Shown here one piece after another: positions 1,474 through 14,008 of a stretch of 51,135 bases of DNA; position 1 is the first letter of the stretch; the number at the start of each line of letters is the position of its first letter. The stretch covers positions 1 through 51,135 of the forward strand of contig CAIKTR010000013.1 of the NCBI GenBank assembly GCA_903830425.1, written 5' to 3'. Below the pieces are notes generated by a model. The model saw only the letters and a list, made by a program, of their open reading frames with translations. It was not told the origin of the DNA and searched no databases. Both the position numbers and the translations under genes were made by a program. This stretch comes from an uncultured Opitutia bacterium. Lineage in GTDB: Bacteria > Verrucomicrobiota > Verrucomicrobiia > Opitutales > Opitutaceae.

Positions 1474-3666
1474 TCAGCGCAGGAAGGCCTCCGGCAGGCC
1501 GCCGTCGACGGTGAGCACCTGGCCGGTGGTCTTGCTCAGCCGCGGGCTGACGAGGAGGAAGTAGGCCTCGGCCTGGTCGGCCGGCGTGATCGGCGCCTTG
1601 GTGAGGGTCCGCTCGGCATAATAGCGCGCGAGCTTGGTGACGAGCGAGGCGGTGGGCTCGTCGTCGGTGAAGGCGACATGGTACTTGGCGAGGGAGCTGA
1701 CGACGCGCTCGCGCGGGAACATGGCGGAGCCCTGCACGACGGTGGCGGGGGCGACGCCGTTGACGCGCACGAGCGGGGACAGCTCGACGGCGAGCTCGCG
1801 CACGAGGTGGCTGACGGCGGCCTTCGACGTGTCGTAGGCGAGGGTGCCCTTCTTGGCGACGACGGCGTTGGCCGAGGAGGTGAGGACGAGGCTGCCGCGC
1901 AGGCCCTGTTTTTTCCACGTCTTGGCGGCCTCATCGGCGACGAGGTAGCTGCCGGTGACGTTGACGTGGTAGGTGAAGAGCCACTTGTCATCCGGGATGT
2001 GGCCGGCGGCGTCGCTGGGCCAGATGACGCCGGCGGTGACGACGATGGCGTCGAAGCCGCCGTAGGCGAGGGCGACCTGGTCGAGCATCGCGCGGATGCT
2101 GGCGCGGTCGGTGATGTTGCAGGCCAGGCCGAGGGCGGGGCCGCAGGCGGAAATCCCCGACCCGGCCACGCCGATCCCCTGCCCGAGCCGGTCGGTGATT
2201 TCCTGCGCGGTGGCCGCGGCGGCCTCCGGCTGCAGGTCGACGCACACGAGGTGGGCGCCTTCCCGCGCGAGGCGGTGGGCGGTTTCCCGGCCGATGCCGG
2301 AGCCGGCGCCGATGACGATGGCAATCTGGCGGGCGAGCTCCTTCTCGGCGGGCATGCGCTTCAGCTTGGCCTCCTCGAGCCGCCAGTACTCGATGTCGAA
2401 CGCCTCCTGCGGCGGCAACGCGATGTAGCGGTCGATGGCCTCGGCGCCGCGCATGACCTCGACGGCGCAGTTATAGAACTCGGCGGTGACGCGGGACTCC
2501 GACTTGTCCTTGCCCCAGGTGATCATGCCGAGGCCGGGGATGAGCACGACGGTCGGGCTGGCCTCGCGCATGGCGGGGGAGTGGGGGTGCCGGTACTGCG
2601 CGTAATAGGCCGCGTAGTCCTGGCGGTAGGCCGCGAGGCCGGCGGTGAGCCGGGCCTTGAGGTCGGCGAGGCCCTCGGTCTGCGGGTTCCAGTCCACGTA
2701 GAGCGGCTTGATCTTGGTGCGCAGGAAGTGGTCGGGGCACGACGTGCCGAGCGCGGCGAGCCGGGCGGCATCCCGCGAGTTCACAAAGCGGAGAATCTTC
2801 TCATCCTCCTGCACCGTGCCGATGAAGCGCTGCTGCGGCGACACCTGCCCCCGGAGCCACGGGAGGAGGCCGGCGAAGAGCGCCGCGCGCTGCTCGGGCG
2901 CGAGCGTGGCGTACTGCGCGCCGCCGAACGCCGCGGCGTCGCCGCCCTTCGCGGCGTACTGCCGCTCGATGTAGGCCGCGGCCCGCTCGATGCAGTCCAG
3001 CGTGTAGGTGTAGCAGGCCCGCTCGTCCTGGTCCCAGGAGATGAAGCCGTGCTGGCCCATCATGATGGACTTCACCTGCGGCTGCTGCCGGCAGATCTCC
3101 TGCATCGCGAGGCCGAGCTCAAAGCCGGGCCGCATCCACGGGACGTAGGCCATCTCGCCGCCGAAGATCTCCTGGGTGAGCTGGGCGCAGCGGGCCGACG
3201 CGGCGATCGCGATGATCGCGTTGGGGTGCATGTGGTCGACGAACGGGGCCGGGATGAAGCTGTGCAGCGGGGTGTCGATGGACGAGGCGCGCGGGTTCAG
3301 GTTGAAGGTGGCGTGGCCGGCCATGGCGACCATGTCGTCCTCGGCGGTGGACTTGAGCCCCCGGTCGGCGCGCGCCGCGTAGAGGGCCTGCATCCCGATG
3401 AGCTTCGACTGGTAGAGGGACGAGAAATTTTCGCGCGTGCTGGTGCGGAGGTCGCCGCCGGAGCCCTTGACCCAGAGGACGGTGGCGGGCTGGCCGGTCA
3501 GCGGGTCCGTTTCCGTGAGCTTGGACGACGTGTTGCCGCCGCCGGTGTTGGTGATGCGCTGGTCGCTGCCCAGGAGCTGGGAGCGGTAGACGAGGCGGGC
3601 GACGGGATCGAGCGCCGCGGCGGCGGCCTCATCCCAGCAATAGTTGACGTGGCGGTAGGTTTTCAT
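1474..3666 (-). CDS. Bifunctional rhamnulose-1-P aldolase / short-chain dehydrogenase
   Basis: A 730-residue fusion. Residues ~1-430 are a class II aldolase: Gly-rich 'NTGGGNTSSKL' near 40-50, zinc ligands H145 and H147 ('DHMHPN') and H206 ('GQHGF'). Residues ~445-730 are an SDR dehydrogenase with the 'GAGSGIG' nucleotide motif (453-459), S598, and Y611/K615 ('YDTSK'). Members of this family cleave L-rhamnulose 1-phosphate to dihydroxyacetone phosphate and L-lactaldehyde and oxidise the lactaldehyde to lactate with NAD+. The length matches the known fusions. It is the twelfth gene of the leftward BMC operon. I see no encapsulation helix at either end, so it is probably cytosolic. Confidence 0.93.
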   Translation of the reverse strand: MKTYRHVNYCWDEAAAAALDPVARLVYRSQLLGSDQRITNTGGGNTSSKLTETDPLTGQPATVLWVKGSGGDLRTSTRENFSSLYQSKLIGMQALYAARADRGLKSTAEDDMVAMAGHATFNLNPRASSIDTPLHSFIPAPFVDHMHPNAIIAIAASARCAQLTQEIFGGEMAYVPWMRPGFELGLAMQEICRQQPQVKSIMMGQHGFISWDQDERACYTYTLDCIERAAAYIERQYAAKGGDAAAFGGAQYATLAPEQRAALFAGLLPWLRGQVSPQQRFIGTVQEDEKILRFVNSRDAARLAALGTSCPDHFLRTKIKPLYVDWNPQTEGLADLKARLTAGLAAYRQDYAAYYAQYRHPHSPAMREASPTVVLIPGLGMITWGKDKSESRVTAEFYNCAVEVMRGAEAIDRYIALPPQEAFDIEYWRLEEAKLKRMPAEKELARQIAIVIGAGSGIGRETAHRLAREGAHLVCVDLQPEAAAATAQEITDRLGQGIGVAGSGISACGPALGLACNITDRASIRAMLDQVALAYGGFDAIVVTAGVIWPSDAAGHIPDDKWLFTYHVNVTGSYLVADEAAKTWKKQGLRGSLVLTSSANAVVAKKGTLAYDTSKAAVSHLVRELAVELSPLVRVNGVAPATVVQGSAMFPRERVVSSLAKYHVAFTDDEPTASLVTKLARYYAERTLTKAPITPADQAEAYFLLVSPRLSKTTGQVLTVDGGLPEAFLR

Positions 3667-3709: not shown

Positions 3710-4639
3710 CTACGCGCGCTGCACCTGGGCGAAGGTGTCCTGGAGGGCGCGGGCGGAGGCCTGCAGCGCCTGCAGCTCCTTGGGCCAGAGCTCCACCGGG
3801 ACGTGGGCGAGCGCGCCGGCGCGGCCGACGACGGTGGGCACGCTGAGCGCCACGCCGCGGAGGCCGTAGGCGCCCTGCTGCACGGTGGAGACCGGGAGGA
3901 CCTGCCGGCGGTCGAGGGCGATGGCGTGGACGATCTCGGCGATGGTGAGGGCGACCGCCCAGCCGGCGCCGCCCTTGCGGCGGATCACCTCGGCGCCGCT
4001 GCCCTTGGTGCGCTCGAAGATCTGCGCCTGGAAGGCGGGGGTGCAGCCGGGATGCTTGGCCAGCGGCAGGCCGGCCCAGGTGGCGGACGACCAGACGGGG
4101 AACATGGAGTCGCCGTGCTCGCCGAGGATCAGGGCCCGCACCTGGGTGGGGGCGAGCGCCAGCTCCTGCGCGAGGAGCGAGCGGAAGCGCGCGGTGTCGA
4201 GCATCGTGCCCAGGCCGAGCACCTGCGACCACGGCAGGCCCAGCTGCGCGGCGGCGAGCTGGGTGAGAATGTCGACGGGATTCGAGACGACGAGGACGAG
4301 CGCGTCGCGGCGGAGGCCGGCGGCCCGGAGGGAGTCGAGGATGCCGGTGAACAGCGCGACGTTGCGGTTGATCAGGTCGAGGCGGGACTCGTCGGGCTTG
4401 CGGCGGAGGCCGGCGGTGATGACGAACACGTCGCTGTCGCGGGCCCGGGCGTAGTCGCCGGCGTAGATGCGCTGGTCGGCGCTGACGGAGGAGCCGTGCC
4501 GCAGGTCGAGCGCCTCGCCCTCGGCGAGGTCGGCGTTGGCGTCGAGCAGCTGGATCTCGGACACGAGGCCGGCGCACTGGAGGGCGAAGGCGGCGTTGGA
4601 GCCGACGCGACCGCCGCCGCCGATGATGGAAACTTTCAT
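3710..4639 (-). CDS. Lactate/malate dehydrogenase family protein (BMC-associated)
   Basis: A 309-residue NAD-dependent 2-hydroxyacid dehydrogenase. The N-terminal 'IIGGGGRVGS' is the Rossmann loop, D33 ('LLDAN') fits NAD binding, and the catalytic His lies in 'GEHGDSMFP'. The substrate loop reads 'AGLRRKPDESRLDLINRN': the residue before Lys-Pro is Arg (R80), as in malate dehydrogenases, where lactate dehydrogenases have Gln. The start at 4639 is fixed by the Rossmann motif; upstream sequence in this frame is a shadow of the aldolase gene. PVM-type BMC loci usually carry such a gene, thought to recycle NADH from the aldehyde dehydrogenase. No clear encapsulation peptide is seen. Substrate is uncertain. 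Confidence 0.88.
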   Translation of the reverse strand: MKVSIIGGGGRVGSNAAFALQCAGLVSEIQLLDANADLAEGEALDLRHGSSVSADQRIYAGDYARARDSDVFVITAGLRRKPDESRLDLINRNVALFTGILDSLRAAGLRRDALVLVVSNPVDILTQLAAAQLGLPWSQVLGLGTMLDTARFRSLLAQELALAPTQVRALILGEHGDSMFPVWSSATWAGLPLAKHPGCTPAFQAQIFERTKGSGAEVIRRKGGAGWAVALTIAEIVHAIALDRRQVLPVSTVQQGAYGLRGVALSVPTVVGRAGALAHVPVELWPKELQALQASARALQDTFAQVQRA

Positions 4640-4827: not shown

Positions 4828-5880
4828 CTATTTGGCGGCCAGGGCCTTGAGGATCTGCTCGGTGATCTGCTGGACCACGGCTTCGACCTGGGGGTCGGCC
4901 GCGGCGCGCGCGGGCGCGGGGGTGGCCGGGGTGGTGCCGGGGCGAAATTCGGCGCTGTCGCAGAGCTCGCACTCCTTGAGGTTGGCGCGCGGGTCGGGCA
5001 TGCCGAGCTTCTGGCGGAGGTTGACGAGCTCCTTGGCCTGGCCGCCGGAGAAGCGGTGCAGGCCGCCGCCGAGGCCGGCGGCGATCCAGACCGTGCGGCA
5101 GTAGGAATCGATGTTTTCCATCTTCCAGTAGGCGTCCTCCACGTCCTTGCCCCAGACGATGACGCCGTGGTTCTGCATGAGGACGGCCTGGTGGGTCTTG
5201 CCGACCTCGCCGACCTCGTCGGCGTTGGCGGGGGTGCCGGGCGTGCGGTACTGGGCGACGCCGATCTTGCCGAGGAACACCTCGGCCTCGGGGATGAGGC
5301 AGGAGGGGATGTCGACGTTGGCGATGGCGAAGGCGGTGGCGTGGGGCGGGTGCGCGTGCACGCAGGACTTGCAGGCGGGCTGGCGCTTCATGATGCCGAA
5401 GTGGGTGAGGGCCTCGCTGGTGCGCACGCGGGCGCCGGCGAGCTGCCGGCCGTCGAGGTCGACGAGGCACATGTCGTCGGGCTTCATGTCGCCCTTGCAG
5501 ATGAGCGTGGGGGTGCAGAGCGCGAGGTTGTCGCCGACGCGGATGGTGATGTTGCCGCCGTTGCCGTCGGTGTATTCGCGCTGCCAGAGGCGGCGGCCCA
5601 TTTCGCAGATGCGCTCCTTGAGGAGCTGGATGGCGGGGGAGCGGAAGAACTTCTCGATCTCGGCGGGGGTCTTGGGATCGGAGCCGGGGGCCCACTTGAA
5701 CTCGTAGTCGGGCACGCTGGGGCCGGCGGGCTTGGCGGCGGCGGCGGCGGGCTTGAAGCCGGGCTTGGCGCGGCCGCTGAACACGTCGCGGGCGGACGGG
5801 GTGAGGATGGCGCCGGCCGGCGGCTGTTCCCCCTTGCGGAGGAGCTCTTCGGCTTCGCGGGCGGTGATGAGGTTGGACAT
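4828..5880 (-). CDS. Class II aldolase with encapsulation peptide (fuculose/rhamnulose-P type)
   Basis: A 350-residue protein in three parts. Residues 1-33 form a small helical module ending 'GAILTPSARD'. An Ala/Pro linker follows. Residues ~75-300 are a class II aldolase with Gly-rich 'DGNGGN' (105-110), catalytic E156 ('TSEALTH'), zinc ligands H175 and H177 ('VHAHPPH') and H238 ('QNHGV'). After a second Ala/Pro linker, residues ~329-350 ('VEAVVQQITEQILKAL') form an amphipathic helix typical of BMC cargo encapsulation peptides. It is therefore the likely signature enzyme, splitting a deoxyketose 1-phosphate to dihydroxyacetone phosphate and lactaldehyde in the lumen. At ~350 residues it is much longer than a free FucA (~215). 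Confidence 0.92.
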   Translation of the reverse strand: MSNLITAREAEELLRKGEQPPAGAILTPSARDVFSGRAKPGFKPAAAAAKPAGPSVPDYEFKWAPGSDPKTPAEIEKFFRSPAIQLLKERICEMGRRLWQREYTDGNGGNITIRVGDNLALCTPTLICKGDMKPDDMCLVDLDGRQLAGARVRTSEALTHFGIMKRQPACKSCVHAHPPHATAFAIANVDIPSCLIPEAEVFLGKIGVAQYRTPGTPANADEVGEVGKTHQAVLMQNHGVIVWGKDVEDAYWKMENIDSYCRTVWIAAGLGGGLHRFSGGQAKELVNLRQKLGMPDPRANLKECELCDSAEFRPGTTPATPAPARAAADPQVEAVVQQITEQILKALAAK

Positions 5881-5891
5881 GGGAAGGAGGG

Positions 5892-6191
5892 TTAGGCGGA
5901 CGGCGGAGTGTAGAAAATCTGGTCGATGATGGCGGCGTTGAAGGCGTCGACCGGGGTCGGCTGGGTGAAGGGGACGGCGGCCTCCGCGCCCTCGGTGAAG
6001 CCGATGACGTGGCCGTGGGTGGCGCCGAGGTTGTCGTAGACGACGAGACTGCTGCCCGGCGCCAGGGGGGTCATGGGGGCGCCGGCGAACTGGGGGGCGG
6101 CGAACGGCTGCACGAGCAGGAACCGGCCGCCGCGGTAGGCGGGATCCTGGTGGGAGAGGGTGACCCGACCGATGACATGGCCCAGGCGCAT
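5892..6191 (-). CDS. BMC-P shell vertex protein (EutN/CcmL family) 1
   Basis: A 99-residue EutN/CcmL protein beginning 'MRLGHVIGRVTLSHQDP', the usual first strand of the family ('G.V.G.V..T'). The core 'LVVYDNLGATHGHVIGF' matches the 'D.lGAG.G..V' segment. Such proteins form pentamers that cap the vertices of the shell. It is 2 nt from the next BMC-P gene at 6194 and directly upstream of the aldolase. The start is set by the conserved N terminus; the longer open frame upstream is antisense noise. Confidence 0.93.
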   Translation of the reverse strand: MRLGHVIGRVTLSHQDPAYRGGRFLLVQPFAAPQFAGAPMTPLAPGSSLVVYDNLGATHGHVIGFTEGAEAAVPFTQPTPVDAFNAAIIDQIFYTPPSA

Positions 6192-6193
6192 GG

Positions 6194-6469
6194 TCAGGCG
6201 GTCTCCCGGGCGGGCTCGTCCACGAGGGCGAGGATGAGGTTGCGCAGGGGGGAGCGGGGGTCCTGCACGTACTCGCGCGTCTTGGACCCGTCGGTGGAGA
6301 TGAGGACGTGCTGGTGCTGGCCGGCGCTGAGGGGGTCGAGGGCGAGGATCGGGGGGCCCTCGGGGCGTCCGGCCTCGTCGATCGGCTGGCAGATGACGGT
6401 GCGGCAGCCGGCCATGCTCGGATGGCAGACGGACGAGACGATCACCCCATCGACGCGCGCCAGGATCAT
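6194..6469 (-). CDS. BMC-P shell vertex protein 2
   Basis: A 91-residue EutN/CcmL protein, 'MILARVDGVIVSSVCHPSM', with 'VICQPID' as second strand. It differs strongly from its two paralogues here. The usual 'DxxGAGxG' core is replaced by 'LDPLSAGQHQHVLISTDGS', a shift also seen in some CcmL relatives. It is packed between the aldehyde dehydrogenase (3-nt gap) and BMC-P 1. Pentameric vertex role inferred from family. Confidence 0.92.
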   Translation of the reverse strand: MILARVDGVIVSSVCHPSMAGCRTVICQPIDEAGRPEGPPILALDPLSAGQHQHVLISTDGSKTREYVQDPRSPLRNLILALVDEPARETA

Positions 6470-6472
6470 GGG

Positions 6473-7957
6473 TCAGTAGATGCGGAGGTTGTCGACCATC
6501 ACGCAGCGGCGCGTGCGGGTGAAGGTGGCCGGGTTGGTGATGCCCTCGCCGGTGGTGGTGGCGATGGAGTAGCTGAGGTAGCCCTCGCCGCCGAGGCCGA
6601 GGCCGGCGGTGGACGGGCCGTTCTTGACGAAGAGCGTGGTGTCGAGCGCGCGGGCCATCTGGGTCATGTGGTCGACGTTGAGCGAGTGGATGACGGCGGA
6701 GTGCTTGTAGCCGTGCTCGGATTTCCGGGCGAACTCGATGGCCTGCTGGATGCTTTGGACGCGGACGACCGGGAGCATGGGCATCATCTGCTCCTCCATC
6801 ACGAACGCGTGGTCGACGTCGGTCTCGGCGTAGAGCAGGGGGGTGTTGGCGGGGACGTTGGCGCCGGCGTGGCGGGCGAGGACGGCGGCGTCGGCGCCGA
6901 CGAGCTGGCGGTTGAGCACGGCGTGGGAGCAGCCGCCGGCATCCTTGGAGGTGGTGAAGGCGGCGGCGGTGAGCTTGGCCAGCTGGGAGGAGCTGAGGGC
7001 GACGCCGCCGGCGGCCTTGAGGCCGTCGAGGAAGCGGTCGGCGAAGGGGGCGAGGACGAACACCTGCTTTTCGCCGATGCAGAGGAGGTTGTTGTCGAAG
7101 GCGCTGCCCTGGATGATGTCGCGGGCGGCCTTCTGGAGGCAGCCGGTGCCGTCGACGATGACGGGGGGGTTGCCGGGGCCGGCGCAGATGGCGCGCTTGC
7201 CGGACTTCATGGCGGCGCTGACGACGCCGGGGCCGCCGGTGATGCAGAGGAGGTTGATGAACTCGTGCTTGGTCAGCGCGGTGAAGGTGTCGAGGGTCGG
7301 CTGCAGGACGGTGCAGACGAGGTGCTCGATGCCGAGGGCGGCGGAGATGGCCTCGTTGTAGGCGCGGACGGCGAGGGCGGCGGAGCGGGCGCCGCCGGGA
7401 TGGGGGTTGAACACGACCGCGTTGCCGGCGGCGACGATGTTGATGATGTTGCCGCTGAGGGTCGGGATGGAATGGGTGACGGGCAGGATGGCGCCGACGA
7501 CGCCGAAGGGGGTGTGCTCCTCGAGGGTGATGCCGTGGTCGCCGCTGAGGCCGTAGGGCTTGATCCACTCGACGCCGGGGACGAGCTTCACGATCTGGAG
7601 CTTCTCGATCTTGTGCTCGAGCCGGCCGATCTTGGTCTCCTCGAACTCGAACTTCCCCCACTCGACCGCGTGGGCGGTGGACATGGCCTTGACGATCTCG
7701 ATGACCTTGGCGCGGCCGGCGACGCCCTTTTCCTTGAGCTGCTCGAACGCGCCCTGGGCGGCGACGCAGGCGGCGTTGACGTCCTCGAACACGCCGTAGC
7801 GCCCGCCCTTGGCGGCGGGCCGGGCCGGGGCGGCGCCCGCGGGGGGCGACGACGGGGACGCGGCGGGCGAGAGGATGGGCGAACGGGCCAGGCTGCGCAT
7901 CACGTCTTCGACCACGGCGCGCACGGCCTGCTCATCGAGTTGGAAGGGGGAGCTCAT
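6473..7957 (-). CDS. CoA-acylating aldehyde dehydrogenase (PduP/EutE-like), BMC cargo
   Basis: A 494-residue enzyme that should convert an aldehyde, here probably lactaldehyde, plus CoA and NAD+ to the acyl-CoA. Residues ~6-27 ('DEQAVRAVVEDVMRSLARS') form an amphipathic N-terminal helix followed by a Pro/Ala linker, the classic encapsulation peptide of PduP-type enzymes. The catalytic core follows, with 'GPGNPPVIVDGTG' and the nucleophile C293 in 'NNLLCIGEKQV'. The ATG at 7957 was preferred to one 24 codons upstream because the helix then sits at the true N terminus. The gene lies between two BMC-P genes. Lactaldehyde is inferred from the aldolases in the same operon. Confidence 0.94.
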   Translation of the reverse strand: MSSPFQLDEQAVRAVVEDVMRSLARSPILSPAASPSSPPAGAAPARPAAKGGRYGVFEDVNAACVAAQGAFEQLKEKGVAGRAKVIEIVKAMSTAHAVEWGKFEFEETKIGRLEHKIEKLQIVKLVPGVEWIKPYGLSGDHGITLEEHTPFGVVGAILPVTHSIPTLSGNIINIVAAGNAVVFNPHPGGARSAALAVRAYNEAISAALGIEHLVCTVLQPTLDTFTALTKHEFINLLCITGGPGVVSAAMKSGKRAICAGPGNPPVIVDGTGCLQKAARDIIQGSAFDNNLLCIGEKQVFVLAPFADRFLDGLKAAGGVALSSSQLAKLTAAAFTTSKDAGGCSHAVLNRQLVGADAAVLARHAGANVPANTPLLYAETDVDHAFVMEEQMMPMLPVVRVQSIQQAIEFARKSEHGYKHSAVIHSLNVDHMTQMARALDTTLFVKNGPSTAGLGLGGEGYLSYSIATTTGEGITNPATFTRTRRCVMVDNLRIY

Positions 7958-7982: not shown

Positions 7983-8294
7983 TCAGGACTTGGCGGGATA
8001 GATCTTGTGGTTGAGGACCTCGACGGCATCGACGATGCCGACGACGACGGCGTCCACGGGCAGCGCCTTCATGCCGGTGGCCTGGCGCGCGGAGCTGCCC
8101 TGGCAGAACAGCACGACCTCGTCCAGGCCGGCCCCCAGGGTGTCCACGGCGACGATGGTGTTCGCGCCGGGGCGGAAGCGCGCGGGATTGGCCTCGTCCA
8201 CCAGGAGCGGACGGAGCACCACCAGCTTGCGACCCTTCATCGCCTCATCCTTTTTGGTCGAGACGACGGAACCGATGACGCGGGCGAGGAACAT
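7983..8294 (-). CDS. BMC-P shell vertex protein 3
   Basis: A 103-residue EutN/CcmL protein, 'MFLARVIGSVVSTKKDEAM', with the canonical 'GRKLVVLRPL' and 'VDTLGAGLDEVVLFCQGSSAR' segments. It is the most typical of the three BMC-P proteins in this locus. The C-terminal 'VVGIVDAVEV' strand is also conserved. It lies between BMC-H 1 and the aldehyde dehydrogenase. Confidence 0.95.
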   Translation of the reverse strand: MFLARVIGSVVSTKKDEAMKGRKLVVLRPLLVDEANPARFRPGANTIVAVDTLGAGLDEVVLFCQGSSARQATGMKALPVDAVVVGIVDAVEVLNHKIYPAKS

Positions 8295-8317: not shown

Positions 8318-8617
8318 TTATTTCTTGGCGGGGGCGGCGGGGGCCTTGGGCAGCACGACGCTGACCTCGTCATGCGGGCGGGGGATGACCTGCACGCTGA
8401 CGACCTCGCCGACGGTGCGGGCGGCCTGGGCGCCGGCGTCGGTGGCGGCCTTGACGGCGGCGACGTCGCCGATGACGACGGCGGTGACGAGGGCGTTGCC
8501 GACCATTTTCATGGGGCCGGCGAGGGTGACGTTGGCGGACTTGAGCATGGCGTCGACGCCGGTGACGAGGGCGGTGAGACCGCGGGTTTCAAGGAGACCG
8601 ATGGCTTTGGAGGACAT
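8318..8617 (-). CDS. BMC-H shell hexamer protein 1
   Basis: A 99-residue single-domain BMC protein: '[20 protein letters not shown]' is the first strand and helix, and '[19 protein letters not shown]' the second helix. The pore loop is 'MVGNALV', different from the two other BMC-H proteins here. '[10 protein letters not shown]' is the usual C-terminal strand, followed by an Ala/Pro/Lys tail. Hexamers tile the shell facets. The gene lies between the acetate kinase homologue and BMC-P 3. Confidence 0.96.
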
Positions 8618-8648: not shown

Positions 8649-9839
8649 CTACTGCGGCGGGGTGAGGGCGCGGCGCGTCTCGCGGGCGACGACGAGCTCC
8701 TCGTTGGCGGGGATGACGAAGACCTTGACGCGGGAGTGGGGGGCGGAGATTTCGCCCTCGGCGCGGGTCGCGGCGTTGCGGGCGGGGTCGAGGACGAGGC
8801 CGAGCTGGTCGAGGTCGGCGCAGATGGCGGCGCGGAGGGCGGGGTTGTTTTCGCCGATGCCGGCGGTGAAGACGAGGGCGTCGCAGCCGTTGAGGGCGAA
8901 GAAGAGGGAGCCGATCCAGTGGCGGGCGGAGTGGACGAGGACGTCGAGCGCGAGCTGGGCGCGGGCGTGGCCCTGGTCGGCGGCGGCGCGGAGGTCGCGG
9001 AGGTCATTGCTCAGGCCGGAGAGGCCGAGCAGGCCGCTCTCCTTGGTCAGCTGGCGCTCGACCTCGGCGAGGGGGAGGCCGAGGGTCTTCATCACGAACG
9101 GGACGGCGGCGGAGTCGAGGTCGCCGACGCGGTTGTTGTGCGGCAGGCCGGACTGGGGGCTGAGGCCCATGCTGGAGCCGATGGCGACGCCGTCGCGCAT
9201 GCCGGCGACGGAGCTGCTGCCGCCGAGGTGGCAGGAGATGACGCGGAAGGGCGGGCGGGCGGGATCCGCGGGGGTCGGGCCGGCGGGATAGAGGTGGCGG
9301 ACGCGCGCGGCGATGTCGGGGCGGCCGAGGAGCTCGGCGGAGCGCTCGGCGATGAACTTGTGGCTGGCGCCGTGGTAGCCGTAGCGGCGGACGCCGGCCT
9401 GGTACCAGGCCTCGGGCACGGCGTAGCGGGTGGCGGCCTCGGGCAGCCACTGGTAGAACGCGGTCTCGAAGAGGGCGACGAGGGGGACGCCGGGGAGCTT
9501 GGCGCGGAAGCGGCGGATGCCCTCGGCGTAGGCCGGGTTGTGGGCCGGGGCGATCTCGCGCATACCCTCGAGGGCGGCGATGGCGCGGTCGTCGGCGAGG
9601 ACGCAGCCGGTGAGGTTCTTGCCGAGGACGGCCTTGAAGCCGACGCCGTGGAGGTCGGCGGCGGTGCGCACGTGGCCGGCGGCGCGCAGTTCGGCGAGGC
9701 AGTCGTCGATCGCCTTCCCCTGGTCGGCCACGCGCTCGTAGCCGCCCTTCGCGAGCAGGGTGGCCTCCCCCGCCCCATCAAAGCGAAAGAGGCGGAACTT
9801 GAAGGAGGTCGAGCCGAGGTTGGCGACGAGGATGTTCAT
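8649..9839 (-). CDS. Acetate kinase family protein (acyl-phosphate kinase of the BMC pathway)
   Basis: A 396-residue ASKHA acid kinase that should take an acyl phosphate plus ADP to acid plus ATP. Family landmarks are 'NLGSTSFKF' (phosphate 1), 'APAHNP' with H100, 'YGYHGASH' with H156, 'HLGGSSSV' (phosphate 2), R237 in 'NRVGDLD' and 'FTAGIGEN'. Compared with true acetate kinases, the acetate-site Arg (usual 'HRVVHGG') is K69, the pocket Leu before the catalytic His is A99, and the Phe of 'YGFHG' is Y155. This fits a larger or hydroxylated acyl group such as lactyl. It lies between BMC-H genes. Calling it plain AckA would be too confident. Confidence 0.9.
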
Positions 9840-9915: not shown

Positions 9916-10212
9916 TCAGGTGGACGCGGGCTGGCTGAGCCACTTGCCGAGGCCGGCGAGCTCCTCGTGCGGGCGCGGGATGACCTGGACGGCGACGACC
10001 TCGCCGACCTTGGAGGCGGCTTCGGCGCCGGCGTCGATCGCGGCCTTGATCGCGGCGACATCGCCGCGGAAAAAGGCGCAGACGTAGCCGCTGCCGACGG
10101 CCTCATAGCCGGTCATGGTGACGCTGGCGGCCTTGAGGGCGGCGTCCGCCGCCTCGAGGAGCGCGCAGAAACCCTTGGTTTCGATAAGTCCGACTGCTTC
10201 TTGGTTAGCCAT
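9916..10212 (-). CDS. BMC-H shell hexamer protein 2
   Basis: A 98-residue single-domain BMC protein, 'AVGLIETKGFCALLEAADAA', with pore loop 'AVGSGYV' and second helix 'RGDVAAIKAAIDAGAEAA'. It ends with a short extension after 'VIPRPHEEL' ('AGLGKWLSQPAST'). It lies 24 nt downstream of BMC-H 3. The tyrosine in the pore loop sets it apart from BMC-H 1 and 3. Confidence 0.96.
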   Translation of the reverse strand: MANQEAVGLIETKGFCALLEAADAALKAASVTMTGYEAVGSGYVCAFFRGDVAAIKAAIDAGAEAASKVGEVVAVQVIPRPHEELAGLGKWLSQPAST

Positions 10213-10236: not shown

Positions 10237-10506
10237 TTAGAGTCCGACGGTGCGGAGCAGTTCGGCGTGGGGCCGGGCGATGACGTGCGAGCAGACGAGC
10301 TCGCCGACGCGCTTGGCGGCCTCGGAGCCGGCTTCGACGGCGGCCTTGACGCTGCCGATGTCGCCTTTGACGACGACGGAGACAAAGCCCCCGCCGATCT
10401 GGATCTGGCGAACGAGGGTGACGTTCGCCGCTTTGACCATGGCGTCGCTAGCTTCGACGCTGCCTACATAGCCTTTGGTTTCTACCATGCCGATGGAATC
10501 ACTCAT
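10237..10506 (-). CDS. BMC-H shell hexamer protein 3
   Basis: An 89-residue minimal BMC-H protein, 'SIGMVETKGYVGSVEASDAM', with pore loop 'QIGGGFVS' and helix 'KGDIGSVKAAVEAGSEAA'. It is the second gene of the leftward operon, after PduL. Its GGG pore loop is nearest the typical small-metabolite pore, so it may be the main facet protein; that is inference. Confidence 0.96.
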   Translation of the reverse strand: MSDSIGMVETKGYVGSVEASDAMVKAANVTLVRQIQIGGGFVSVVVKGDIGSVKAAVEAGSEAAKRVGELVCSHVIARPHAELLRTVGL

Positions 10507-10554: not shown

Positions 10555-11232
10555 TTACTTGAGGAGCTCGACGGGGGTGTCGGGCTGGAGGGCGCAGGCG
10601 TTGCCCTCGTCGGTGTCGAGGTGCACCTCGAGCTTGAACTCGGGGTCCACGCGCACGAACACGCGGTCGAAGGTGAGGGCGCAGGGCCCGCCCACCCGCA
10701 GCCGCATGAAGTCGCCGCCCTTCACGCCGTAGAAGGCGGCGTCGTCGGGGTGCAGGTGAACGTGGGGCGCGGCGCGAATGACGCCCTCCTTCAGCTCGAA
10801 GAAGCCCTTGGGGCCCATCAGCATGCAGCCCGGGGTGCCCTCGATGCGGCCGGAAAAACGGATGGGGGCCTCGAAGCCCAGCGCGATGGAGTCGGTGTGC
10901 GCGAGTTCAACCTGGTTGAGGCTCCGGCAAGGGCCGAGGATGCGGAGGTTGGAGATGATGCGGCTGCGCGGGCCGACCAGCGTGACCATCTCCTGCGCGG
11001 CGAACTGGTCCTTCTGGTAGAGCCACTTCATCGGCGTGAGCTTGGCCCCCGGGCCGAACAGCGCCTCGACCGCCTCGGGGGTCAGATGGCAGTGCCGGGC
11101 GCTGATGTTCACCAACAGCGGATTCGGCGCGAGTGCGGTGCGCGGTAGCTCCCGGCCCAATTGCTGGTAAATCGAACGCCGGACGAGATGCTCGATCTCA
11201 ACACGGTGGGGCGATGGAGGAGGTAGGGACAT
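10555..11232 (-). CDS. pduL: PduL-type phosphate acyltransferase, BMC cargo
   Basis: A 225-residue PduL phosphotransacylase (acyl-CoA + Pi to acyl phosphate + CoA). Zinc ligands are visible as H47 and H49 in 'SARHCHL' and the His cluster 157-161 in 'HVHLHP'; 'GPKGFFEL' and 'NQVELAHTD' are further family signatures. Residues ~10-26 ('VEIEHLVRRSIYQQLG') form an amphipathic helix before a short linker, consistent with the N-terminal encapsulation peptide of BMC PduLs. It is the first gene of the leftward operon. It links the aldehyde dehydrogenase to the acyl-phosphate kinase and recycles CoA in the lumen. Confidence 0.95.
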   Translation of the reverse strand: MSLPPPSPHRVEIEHLVRRSIYQQLGRELPRTALAPNPLLVNISARHCHLTPEAVEALFGPGAKLTPMKWLYQKDQFAAQEMVTLVGPRSRIISNLRILGPCRSLNQVELAHTDSIALGFEAPIRFSGRIEGTPGCMLMGPKGFFELKEGVIRAAPHVHLHPDDAAFYGVKGGDFMRLRVGGPCALTFDRVFVRVDPEFKLEVHLDTDEGNACALQPDTPVELLK

Positions 11233-11334: not shown

Positions 11335-12132
11335 ATGCAAGCCGAGGAACGTCAATCCAAGATAGAGGCCTACCTGCAAAAGGCTGAATTTGCTTCACTT
11401 GAGGAGCTGGCGGGGCACGTCGGGGTGTCGGTTTCGACGGTGCGGCGGGATTTGACGGCGCTGGAAGGCGGCGGGGTGGTCCGGCGAACCCACGGCGGGG
11501 CGCGCACGGCGCAGCAGCCGAAGTCGGATGAATTTGTGTTCAACGTCCGCGACACCCACCAGGTGGCGGAGAAGGAGTCGATCGGCGAGGCCTGCGCCGC
11601 GCTCATCTCGCCCGGGCAGAATGTCATCATCGACAGCGGGACGACGTGCTTCCACGTCGCGAAGCGGCTCGGGGACAAGGTCGCGCAGATCATCACCAAT
11701 TCGCTGCCGGTCGCGAATCTCTTCTCGGCGTCGAACCGCCACGAGGTGCACCTCTCGGGCGGCGTGATCTACCCCCGGCTGGGCGTGCTGGTGGGCCCGC
11801 ACGCGGTGGAGACCTTTGCCCGCATGCACGCCGACGTGGCGATCCTGAGCGGCAGCGGCATCGCCGAGGACGGCATCTACAACTCGCACGCGCTGATCGT
11901 GGACATCCAGCGGGCGATGATCGCGGGCGCGGCCAAGGTCATCTTCTGCATCGACCACAGCAAGTTCGGCCGGCGCTCGACCTTTTTCCTGGCGGACCTG
12001 GCGGCGGTCGACGTGATCGTGACCGACGCCGGCGCCCCGGCGGAGCTGGTGGCGGCGCTCCGGGCCAAGGGCCTCGAGGTGGTCGTCGCCCCGCCCAGCC
12101 CGCCGCCCCCGACCCGGAATTCCCCCTTATGA
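11335..12132 (+). CDS. DeoR-family transcriptional repressor of the BMC locus
   Basis: A 265-residue regulator. Residues ~5-60 hold the DeoR winged helix-turn-helix ('LEELAGHVGVSVSTVRRDL'), and 'VVRRTHGGA' marks the end of the wing. The rest is the sugar-phosphate-sensing domain of the family with 'DSGTTCFHVAKRL' and 'TNSLPVANL'. DeoR proteins are usually released from DNA by a phosphorylated intermediate; here rhamnulose or fuculose 1-phosphate would be logical. It is divergent from the main operon and shares a 4-nt ATGA overlap with the next gene, so it is probably translationally coupled to the RnfC-like gene. Confidence 0.92.
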   Translation: MQAEERQSKIEAYLQKAEFASLEELAGHVGVSVSTVRRDLTALEGGGVVRRTHGGARTAQQPKSDEFVFNVRDTHQVAEKESIGEACAALISPGQNVIIDSGTTCFHVAKRLGDKVAQIITNSLPVANLFSASNRHEVHLSGGVIYPRLGVLVGPHAVETFARMHADVAILSGSGIAEDGIYNSHALIVDIQRAMIAGAAKVIFCIDHSKFGRRSTFFLADLAAVDVIVTDAGAPAELVAALRAKGLEVVVAPPSPPPPTRNSPL

Positions 12133-13445
12133 ACCTCGTCGAACAAGTCAGGGAGGCGGGGGTGGTCGGGGCCGGCGGCGGCGGATTTCCCGCGCACGTC
12201 AAGCTGGCGGGCAAGGCCGACACGGTGATCGCCAACGGCGCCGAGTGCGAGCCCCTCCTCCACAAGGACGCCGCGGTGATGGAGCGCCAGGCCGCCGAGC
12301 TGCTGCAGGGCGTCCAGCTGACGATGGAGGCGGTCGGGGCCCGGACCGGCATCATCGGCATCAAGGCCAAGAACCGGCACGCGGTCGACACCGTCCAGGC
12401 CGCCTGCCAGGGCACGGCGGTGCGCGTGCACCTGCTCGGCGACTATTATCCGGCGGGCGACGAGTACGACCTGGTGCACGAGGCGACCGGCCGGCTGATC
12501 CCGCCGGGCGGGATCCCGCTCAACGTCGGCCTGGTGGTCTGCAACGTGGAGACGCTGGTGAACATCGCCGCGGCCGCGGCGGGCCGCCCGGTCGTGACCA
12601 AGACGCTGACGATCGCGGGGGCGGTGCGGGAGCCGCAGACGATCACGGTGCCGCTCGGCACCAGCCTGCGCGCCTGTGTGGCGGCGGCGGGCGGCGCCAC
12701 CGTCGCCGACCCGGTGCTGGCCATTGGCGGCATGATGATGGGCGAGACGACGGACGAGCTGGACCGGCCGGTGATCAAGACCACCGGCGGCGTGATCGTG
12801 CTGCCGCGCGACCACCACGTGATCGCGCGCAAGCTCAAGCCGGCGGCGGCCCGCCAGGCGATCGGCAAGTCCGCCTGCGACCAGTGCCGCTACTGCACCG
12901 AGCTGTGCCCGCGCTACCTGCTGGGCTACGCGGTGGAGCCGCACCAGGTGATGCGCAGCCTCGCGTTCACCGCGACGGGCGCGGCGCACTGGAACGAGTG
13001 GGCGGCGATGTGCTGCGCCTGCGGGCTCTGCACGCTGTTCGCCTGCCCGGAGGAGCTCTACCCGAAGGAGGCCTGCGACCAGTCGAAGGCGGAGATGAAG
13101 CGGGCCAACCTCAAGTGGTCGGGCCCCACCACGGTGAAGCCGCACCCGCTGCGCGACGGCCGGCGCACGCCGATCGCGTCGCTGCTGAAGAAGCTGAATC
13201 TCGCGCAGTATGCGCACCCCGCGCCGTGGCAGGCCACCGTGCTGGCCCCGGCCCAGATCACCCTGCCGCTCAAGCAGGGCGCCGGCGCCCCCTGCCAACC
13301 GCTCGTCCGCGCCGGCGAGACGGTCGCCGCCGGCCAGGCCGTCGGCGGCATCCCGGACCAGGCGCTGGGCGCCCGGCTCCACGCCCCGTTCGCCGCGACC
13401 GTCGCCGCCGTCACCCCCACCCACCTCCTCCTCGATCGTCGCTGA
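12129..13445 (+). CDS. RnfC/PduS-like iron-sulfur flavoprotein
   Basis: A 438-residue protein of the RnfC/PduS family. The N-terminal 'GVVGAGGGGFPAHVKL' is the Gly-rich flavin/NADH-binding loop. Two ferredoxin-type clusters follow: C250/C253/C256/C260 ('CDQCRYCTELCP') and C295/C298/C301/C306 ('CCACGLCTLFACP'). In the Pdu compartment PduS transfers electrons from NADH and is linked to cobalamin reduction. No cobalamin enzyme or adenosyltransferase is in this window, so another electron sink must be considered. Start at 12129 overlaps the repressor stop (ATGA), and BMC-T follows after 11 nt. Confidence 0.92.
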   Translation: MNLVEQVREAGVVGAGGGGFPAHVKLAGKADTVIANGAECEPLLHKDAAVMERQAAELLQGVQLTMEAVGARTGIIGIKAKNRHAVDTVQAACQGTAVRVHLLGDYYPAGDEYDLVHEATGRLIPPGGIPLNVGLVVCNVETLVNIAAAAAGRPVVTKTLTIAGAVREPQTITVPLGTSLRACVAAAGGATVADPVLAIGGMMMGETTDELDRPVIKTTGGVIVLPRDHHVIARKLKPAAARQAIGKSACDQCRYCTELCPRYLLGYAVEPHQVMRSLAFTATGAAHWNEWAAMCCACGLCTLFACPEELYPKEACDQSKAEMKRANLKWSGPTTVKPHPLRDGRRTPIASLLKKLNLAQYAHPAPWQATVLAPAQITLPLKQGAGAPCQPLVRAGETVAAGQAVGGIPDQALGARLHAPFAATVAAVTPTHLLLDRR

Positions 13446-13456
13446 CCCCCTCCCCC

Positions 13457-14008
13457 ATGACTGAAAAATCCATTGGCTTGGTTGAACTCTCCAGCGTGGT
13501 GGCCGGGTTTCTCGTGGCCGACGCGGCCCTGAAGGCGGGCACGGTGCGGCTGGTCCTCTCGCGCTCGATCTGCTCGGGCAAGTACATGGTGCTGATCGCG
13601 GGCGACCCCTCGGCGGTGCAGAGCGCCATCGCCGCCGGCTGCGACGCGGCCACCGGCTGCCTGATCGACAGCTTCGTCATCACCAACATCCACCCCGACG
13701 TCATCACCGCGCTCGGCCGCACCGCGGTGGCCCCGCCGACGGGCGCGCTGGGGATCCTCGAGTCGTTCAACGTCGCCACGCTGATCAAGGCGGCGGATGC
13801 CTGCGCCAAGAGCGCGGCGATCCAGCTGCTCGAGGTCCGGGTGGCGATGGCGCTCGGCGGCAAGGCGTTTGTCACCATGACCGGCGACGTCGCCGCGGTG
13901 CAGGTGGCGGTGCAGGCGGGGCGCGAGATCATCGCCGCCGCCGGCATGCTGGTGAACGCCGCGGTGATCACGCGGCCGCATCCGGACGTCTACCGGGAAG
14001 TGGTCTGA
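13457..14008 (+). CDS. BMC-T tandem-domain shell protein (PduT-like)
   Basis: A 183-residue protein with two BMC domains: residues ~4-90 ('SIGLVELSSVVAGFLVADAA', 'AGDPSAVQSAIAAGCDAA') and ~96-180 ('ALGILESFNVATLIKAADAC', 'TGDVAAVQVAVQAGREII'). BMC-T proteins form pseudohexameric trimers. The first pore loop contains a cysteine, C39 in 'SRSICSGKYM', at nearly the position of the PduT cysteine (C38) that binds a [4Fe-4S] cluster in the trimer pore. Together with the upstream RnfC-like protein this suggests an electron path through the shell. It is the last gene of the rightward operon. Confidence 0.94.
   Translation: MTEKSIGLVELSSVVAGFLVADAALKAGTVRLVLSRSICSGKYMVLIAGDPSAVQSAIAAGCDAATGCLIDSFVITNIHPDVITALGRTAVAPPTGALGILESFNVATLIKAADACAKSAAIQLLEVRVAMALGGKAFVTMTGDVAAVQVAVQAGREIIAAAGMLVNAAVITRPHPDVYREVV

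Follow-up and report, generated by a model that had tools for sequence, protein, structure and literature searches.

The window described here is a stretch of 51,135 nucleotides from an uncultured Opitutia bacterium (contig CAIKTR010000013.1 of assembly GCA_903830425.1, forward strand). It contains two adjacent genes, referred to below as the pair, which encode a PduS-type NADH:FMN/[4Fe-4S] oxidoreductase (positions 12129..13445, + strand; 438 aa) and a PduT-type bacterial microcompartment (BMC) shell protein of the BMC-T kind (13457..14008, + strand; 183 aa). Both follow a gene for a DeoR-family regulator (11335..12132, + strand; Pfam DeoRC and HTH_DeoR). The ATG of pduS overlaps the deoR stop codon within a common ATGA, and 11 bases separate pduS from the BMC-T gene on the same strand. 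The three genes form an operon-like unit, deoR-pduS-pduT, which is divergent from a complete PVM-type locus for fucose/rhamnose breakdown.

The assignment of PduS is based on its Pfam domain order, its RnfC relatives and its AlphaFold model (pLDDT 91.4). The domains follow one another as Complex1_51K (residues 7-147), SLBB (161-205), a Fer4 dicluster (Fer4_17, 249-310) and RnfC_N (371-431); phmmer alignments revealed that this order is permuted with respect to RnfC, whose chains are the nearest solved relatives of the protein. In RnfC, unlike PduS, RnfC_N is the first domain. The reference for membership was the PduS domain list of PMC6325248, and the order in the window agrees with it. The protein also has a GxGxxG loop (GAGGGG, residues 14-19) and the two cluster motifs of PduS, CxxCxxCxxxC (Cys250/253/256/260) and CxxCxxCxxxxC (Cys295/298/301/306), with 45 residues between them. 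The cysteine spacings, both within and between the motifs, are equal to those of Citrobacter PduS (C264..C274 and C309..C320; PMC2982820).

Both motifs are kept in all 32 PduS proteins of the class loci that were fetched; 80 named loci yielded a further 72 extractable PduS proteins, each of which has both motifs. The eight cluster cysteines are invariant in 40/40 aligned sequences, the window included. The top named records belong to uncultured Opitutae/Opitutaceae (86% identity; L187, the window's own genome possibly excluded). Relatives with the motifs kept reach down to approximately 46% identity, which indicates that the PduS family is not decaying.

The BMC-T protein has two BMC domains and was recognized as PduT-like by both sequence and fold matches. 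Its sequence matches were 3nwg, 3pac and 3n79, and the monomer model (pLDDT 92) gave TM values of 0.90-0.92 to 3n79 and 3pac/3nwg; in the superposed structures it is 38-39% identical to PduT. According to the structure titles and descriptions, 3n79 is PduT C38S and 3pac is PduT with a 4Fe-4S site. In the phmmer alignment, residues 4-183 correspond to PduT 3-182, and Cys39 stands one-to-one opposite PduT residue 38; the tandem BMC-T fold and the equivalent of the pore Cys38 are thus both present. Cys39 is invariant in 54/54 aligned BMC-T sequences (window included). The score against NCBIfam eut_PduT (TIGR02526) was 120.8 bits, below the cut-off of 250.3, so the protein is a PduT homologue and not an equivalog, i.e. 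not PduT by NCBI's rule. Since the model is that of a monomer, the three-fold [4Fe-4S] site of Cys39 in the BMC-T pore is predicted from the homologues 3nwg, 3pac and 3n79. The first-pass annotation of this stretch had placed both open reading frames exactly here, and its reading of two intact 4Fe-4S motifs, a flavin/NADH loop and Cys39 at the PduT cluster position agrees with these results.

The divergent PVM operon, encoded entirely on the − strand, starts with the gene for a PduL phosphotransacylase (10555..11232; PF06130, 229 bits). It is followed by genes for two BMC-H shell proteins (10237..10506 and 9916..10212; PF00936), an acetate/propionate-type kinase (8649..9839; PF00871), a third BMC-H protein (8318..8617; PF00936; start codon picked by eye), a BMC-P vertex protein (7983..8294; PF03319), a CoA-acylating aldehyde dehydrogenase (6473..7957; PF00171, and above the cut-off of NCBIfam PRK15398), two further BMC-P vertex proteins (6194..6469 and 5892..6191; PF03319) and the signature enzyme, the class II aldolase PvmN (4828..5880; PF00596), which the first-pass annotation had correctly taken for an aldolase. 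Directly after the aldolase lies a lactate/malate dehydrogenase (LDH/MDH) homologue (3710..4639; PF00056/PF02866), and beyond it a bifunctional rhamnulose-1-phosphate aldolase/short-chain dehydrogenase (1474..3666; above the cut-offs of NCBIfam NF006189 and TIGR02632). Judged by eye, the N-terminal extension of the aldehyde dehydrogenase (its start codon included in that judgement) and the C-terminal tail of PvmN resemble encapsulation peptides.

The PVM-type BMC, the fucose/rhamnose compartment of Planctomycetes and Verrucomicrobia, was reportedly described by Erbilgin in 2014. The locus in the window has the gene content given for fucose/rhamnose breakdown by this type of compartment (Axen 2014, PMC4207490; Sutter 2021, PMC8217296), namely the aldolase, aldehyde dehydrogenase, PduL, acetate kinase, LDH/MDH, DeoR, BMC-H and (here three) BMC-P proteins, and it differs in the addition of the deoR-pduS-pduT unit with its Fe-S-type BMC-T. 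The first-pass annotation had stated that the locus lacks an alcohol dehydrogenase, and a Pfam scan of ten locus proteins indeed revealed no classical one. However, the LDH/MDH is predicted to fill the core alcohol-dehydrogenase function in PVM loci and, besides the aldehyde dehydrogenase, is their sole gene able to regenerate NAD+ (PMC4207490). With this predicted NAD+-recycling enzyme present in the locus, the claim of a missing enzyme was wrong in substance, and a reading of the pair as the alternative to it is not supported here.

Two features of this PVM dehydrogenase may be mentioned separately. It falls under the NCBI cut-offs for malate and lactate dehydrogenase alike, and a Gln of L-lactate dehydrogenase 1a5z is aligned with an Arg in it. 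This is presumably the site that determines malate versus lactate dehydrogenase specificity. The equivalent Arg occurs in 45/46 locus copies, the remaining copy lying outside the search pattern. The enzyme may use oxaloacetate/malate instead of lactaldehyde/lactate, which would suit a malate/oxaloacetate shuttle; we regard this as a lead, not as a result.

In order to describe the distribution of the pair, we used a sample of 384 genomes of the class, with full-length PduS defined by E below 1e-150. Such a PduS was found in 36 genomes, and PVM genes are present in every one of them: a PVM aldolase adjoined by an aldehyde dehydrogenase in 35, and PduL, BMC-H and DeoR on the contig of the pair in the 36th (G323). 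Further PduS matches were either fragments (G054, G106, G296, G164, G242) or weak, mostly limited to the N-terminal NADH-binding part; in G054 (75% complete), which has such a fragment, there is no PVM aldolase among the matches listed. The pair lies in or beside a PVM locus in 10 of the 32 fetched class loci, the window being the 11th case. On a tree built from 108 PVM cores, its state switches between present and absent at least 12 times. Its behaviour is that of a module gained and lost along with PVM compartments.

Beyond the window we compared 112 other PduS loci, in which the named set overlaps the class-sample set, so that the counts are not independent. PduT is present in 106 of them, and named genomes of Acidobacteria, Ignavibacteria, Latescibacterota and other groups are represented. 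A DeoR homologue (30-87% identity) directly precedes pduS in 15, with one contig double-counted. No conserved neighbour of stand-alone pairs emerged from the 112 loci other than PduT and, where present, PVM genes, and neighbours resembling GroES, GroEL and DnaK were seen (by eye) to be common to about six loci. The idea that the pair marks strict anaerobes was not supported: heme-copper oxidase is missing in 4/35 genomes with the pair and in 3/45 without it (the latter were hand-picked across families, and one, G164, holds PduS fragments), and four matches to this oxidase are present in the window genome. [FeFe]-hydrogenase occurs more often in genomes with the pair (7/35 versus 1/45; p 0.019, uncorrected for kinship), but none was found in the window genome.

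The dehydrogenase of the locus has homologues (E ≤ 1e-60) in 54/384 genomes, all 54 of which are within the PVM-aldolase matches listed. The slot after the aldolase was inspected in 120 PVM-type loci. This dehydrogenase occupies it in 46 loci and a classical malate dehydrogenase in 6; in 5 it is taken by pduS-pduT (three from the class sample and two from the named set, 19-263 bases past the aldolase). Other or no recognized genes are found there in 59 (a distant LDH homologue in two of these), and in the remaining 4 the contig ends. In three loci of one family (L131, L134 and L136; f2), the place of the usual dehydrogenase is occupied by a classical malate dehydrogenase together with an alcohol dehydrogenase of the zinc type, and the latter has an N-terminus that by eye resembles an encapsulation peptide.

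Among 102 verified loci (aldolase and aldehyde dehydrogenase present; 6 of 108 were dropped as fragments or for lying at a contig edge), both modules occur in 9 (the window genome among them), only the dehydrogenase in 36, only the pair in 25 and neither in 32. The pair is therefore rarer where the dehydrogenase is present (9/45 versus 25/57; odds ratio 0.32, p 0.012), as it also is when one genome per genus is counted (69 genomes; odds ratio 0.28, p 0.03) and when all LDH/MDH forms are counted together, a post hoc grouping (9/53 versus 25/50; p 0.0007). A looser table gave 9/52 versus 26/74 (p 0.04). For this table, which draws on the PVM-aldolase matches listed, four genomes with PduS fragments were dropped from 130 (for some of the 130, the stretch that was fetched is without a shell gene), and short aldolase matches (from the Akkermansia-like genus g43, from family f3 and a few ending before residue 300) were excluded by hand. 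Across the class, then, the pair is to some extent an alternative to the dehydrogenase, but in the window genome it is an addition to it.

Our preferred reading, in which we place somewhat more belief than doubt, is that the pair is a second, optional electron exit for the lumen NADH of the PVM fucose/rhamnose microcompartment. We infer its cofactors, direction, acceptor and encapsulation as follows. In the PVM model (PMC4207490), which we extend to the window on the basis of its gene content, the aldolase would make lactaldehyde and the acylating aldehyde dehydrogenase would oxidize it, producing NADH inside the shell. PduT would hold PduS at the inner shell face, where PduS would oxidize this NADH with FMN and relay single electrons via its two [4Fe-4S] clusters to the putative [4Fe-4S] cluster of three Cys39 residues in the BMC-T pore, from which they would pass to an acceptor outside the shell. 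In the window genome the pair would work beside the LDH/MDH homologue without replacing it; elsewhere in the class it is perhaps the main NAD+-recycling module.

The properties reported for the Citrobacter proteins are consistent with such a route: electrons pass from NADH to FMN and then to the clusters of PduS, which binds PduT, and the midpoints are -262 mV for the flavin alone, -150 mV for PduS with its clusters and +99 mV for PduT (PMC2982820). If these values are valid here, electrons would flow outward to a rather oxidizing acceptor, which would suit a respiring cell. The first-pass annotation had already suggested the export of electrons from lumen NADH, and on paper the chain NADH-FMN-FeS-FeS-pore FeS is intact. 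As an idea, however, this is not new, since for other compartments without B12 it has already been proposed that PduS/PduT carry electrons across the shell (PMC8667426, PMC6325248, PMC4207490).

Several observations weigh against the pair being an electron exit of this compartment. No acceptor was identified for its electrons. In 22 of the 32 fetched class loci it is stand-alone, in the sense that the fetched stretch contains at most one kind of PVM core gene (the PVM locus of G020 begins approx. 14 kb off). An operator common to the promoters of stand-alone pairs and of the PVM genes was sought in 20 genomes and no match was seen: the best 18-base promoter match averaged 13.25 within the same genome and 13.0 between different genomes. 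Together, these two results suggest common control only for the in-locus form. The window locus itself carries the dehydrogenase besides the pair, and, as 32 verified loci have neither module, neither is obligatory. The looser table loses its signal with one genome per genus (p 0.19), and 11 independent pairs drawn from the tree of 108 PVM cores (mean 2.8 against and 0.6 in the same direction) agree in direction with the exclusion trend but are few, and the result is not significant. The idea that the pair strictly replaces the dehydrogenase was rejected, as 9/102 loci have both, 32 have neither, and the trend does not reach significance after correction for kinship.

Another explanation is that the dehydrogenase alone recycles NAD+ and that PduS/PduT has a different redox task, for example the reduction of flavin, flavodoxin or the thiols of shell and enzymes at the shell. 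The dehydrogenase is indeed present in the window and in 45/102 verified loci, PduS is reported to be an NADH-dependent flavin reductase (PMC2982820), and a role as NADH:flavodoxin oxidoreductase was proposed in PMC6325248. We nevertheless consider this explanation rather improbable: the pair is rarer in the presence of the dehydrogenase and takes its slot in 5/120 loci, which suggests related duties, and it is hard to see what a pore cluster would be for if the task were confined to the lumen.

Inward flow, by which the pair would reduce a luminal enzyme, as proposed for the activation of the glycyl radical enzyme in GRM compartments, can be given little credence. In its favour, the GRM5 fucose/rhamnose compartments carry PduS/PduT in 57/57 cases (PMC6325248), and, of the 36 genomes that have the pair, 13 contain a PFL-like gene somewhere. 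However, no glycyl radical enzyme (PF02901, PFL-like) was found in the window genome (95% complete, 254 contigs), with E. coli and two other controls positive; the glycyl radical diol dehydratase expected of a GRM5 compartment was thus not found. No luminal enzyme of this locus is known to need low-potential electrons, and a PduT cluster at +99 mV, the Citrobacter value (PMC2982820), would be a poor donor to PduS.

The first-pass annotation saw no B12 enzyme, and this was borne out as far as the searches reach. There was no match to the large subunit of B12 diol dehydratase (PF02286) in the window genome, and all 36 genomes that have the pair were likewise without one, a weak negative because no control genome gave a signal; EutBC and EutT were outside the search. 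No B12 enzyme together with PduO was found under the same regulator, and the sole trace of PduO in the window genome is a PduO-like fragment of 47 residues that lies at a contig edge outside the window (C203). The pair might be a leftover, or might retain its known Pdu role of cobalamin reduction (PMC2982820) for a B12 enzyme encoded elsewhere, and this fragment, the incompleteness of the genome and the scope of the search lend something to such a reading. It can nevertheless be given very little credence, in view of the absence of PF02286 matches (though no control gave a signal), the cysteine motifs kept in distant relatives and the location of every full-length PduS of the class sample in a genome bearing PVM genes.

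The pair and its locus can be compared with known systems. The pair shares with PduS/PduT of Pdu compartments the domain order, the cysteine spacing, the NADH/FMN loop and the adjoining Fe-S BMC-T, but the window genome has neither a diol dehydratase match (in the weak search mentioned) nor a complete PduO. With the GRM1, GRM3, GRM5 and Bilophila isethionate compartments it shares the presence of PduS/PduT in a compartment that is B12-free (in the window genome, as far as the weak search shows); for those compartments, export was proposed (PMC6325248, PMC8667426). GRM5 likewise starts from an aldolase (same sources); the GRM and Bilophila compartments have a glycyl radical enzyme, whereas none was found in the window genome. 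The SPU-like loci of Latescibacteria (PMC4207490) have in common with the window a class II aldolase, an aldehyde dehydrogenase, PduL, PduS and acetate kinase. They differ in the presence of an RpiB-like protein and in their phylum, and the passage describing them is silent on a PduT-type BMC-T. A literature search, with supplementary locus maps outside its scope, found no description of the pair in PVM loci in the passages covered.

For the question whether electrons really pass through the shell of a microcompartment, PVM loci provide a natural comparison, since they differ in the presence of the pair, in that of the dehydrogenase and in whether the pair is part of the locus; in the window genome, no glycyl radical or B12 partner was found that could confuse it. 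Much more tentatively, we suggest as a possibility that exchangeable NAD+-recycling cassettes stand behind the PVM aldolase, either a dehydrogenase with a carried metabolite (perhaps malate/oxaloacetate, in view of the malate-type Arg) or a PduS-PduT wire through the shell to the respiratory chain. The window genome, which has heme-copper oxidase genes, contains both, and its compartment would then possess two separate exits for reducing power.

A second BMC-T gene was found in the window genome on another contig (C86, L001:5443-10556), preceded by genes for an HpcH/HpaI aldolase-cupin fusion, a D-2-hydroxyacid dehydrogenase, a short-chain dehydrogenase (SDR) and a xylose-isomerase-like protein. 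In three related genomes (G290, G320 and G024; L106, L128 and L132) its homologue is accompanied by three BMC-H proteins, three BMC-P proteins and a class II aldolase, with no aldehyde dehydrogenase, PduL or kinase match within the fetched stretch; by Pfam, the enzyme set of L128 is the same as that of L001. These loci possibly represent a compartment type of their own, close to the ACI type already published. In G290 (L106:9570-10620) and G320 (L128:9324-10340), the class II aldolase is approx. 30 residues shorter at its end, so that the encapsulation-like C-terminal tail is missing; G024 has kept this tail.

A protein of approx. 435 residues with weak similarity to DhnA-type aldolases had no match in the window. 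It recurs in PVM loci of the class (L183 and 37 others; 222 sequences searched), and its C-terminal tail, judged by eye, resembles an encapsulation peptide.

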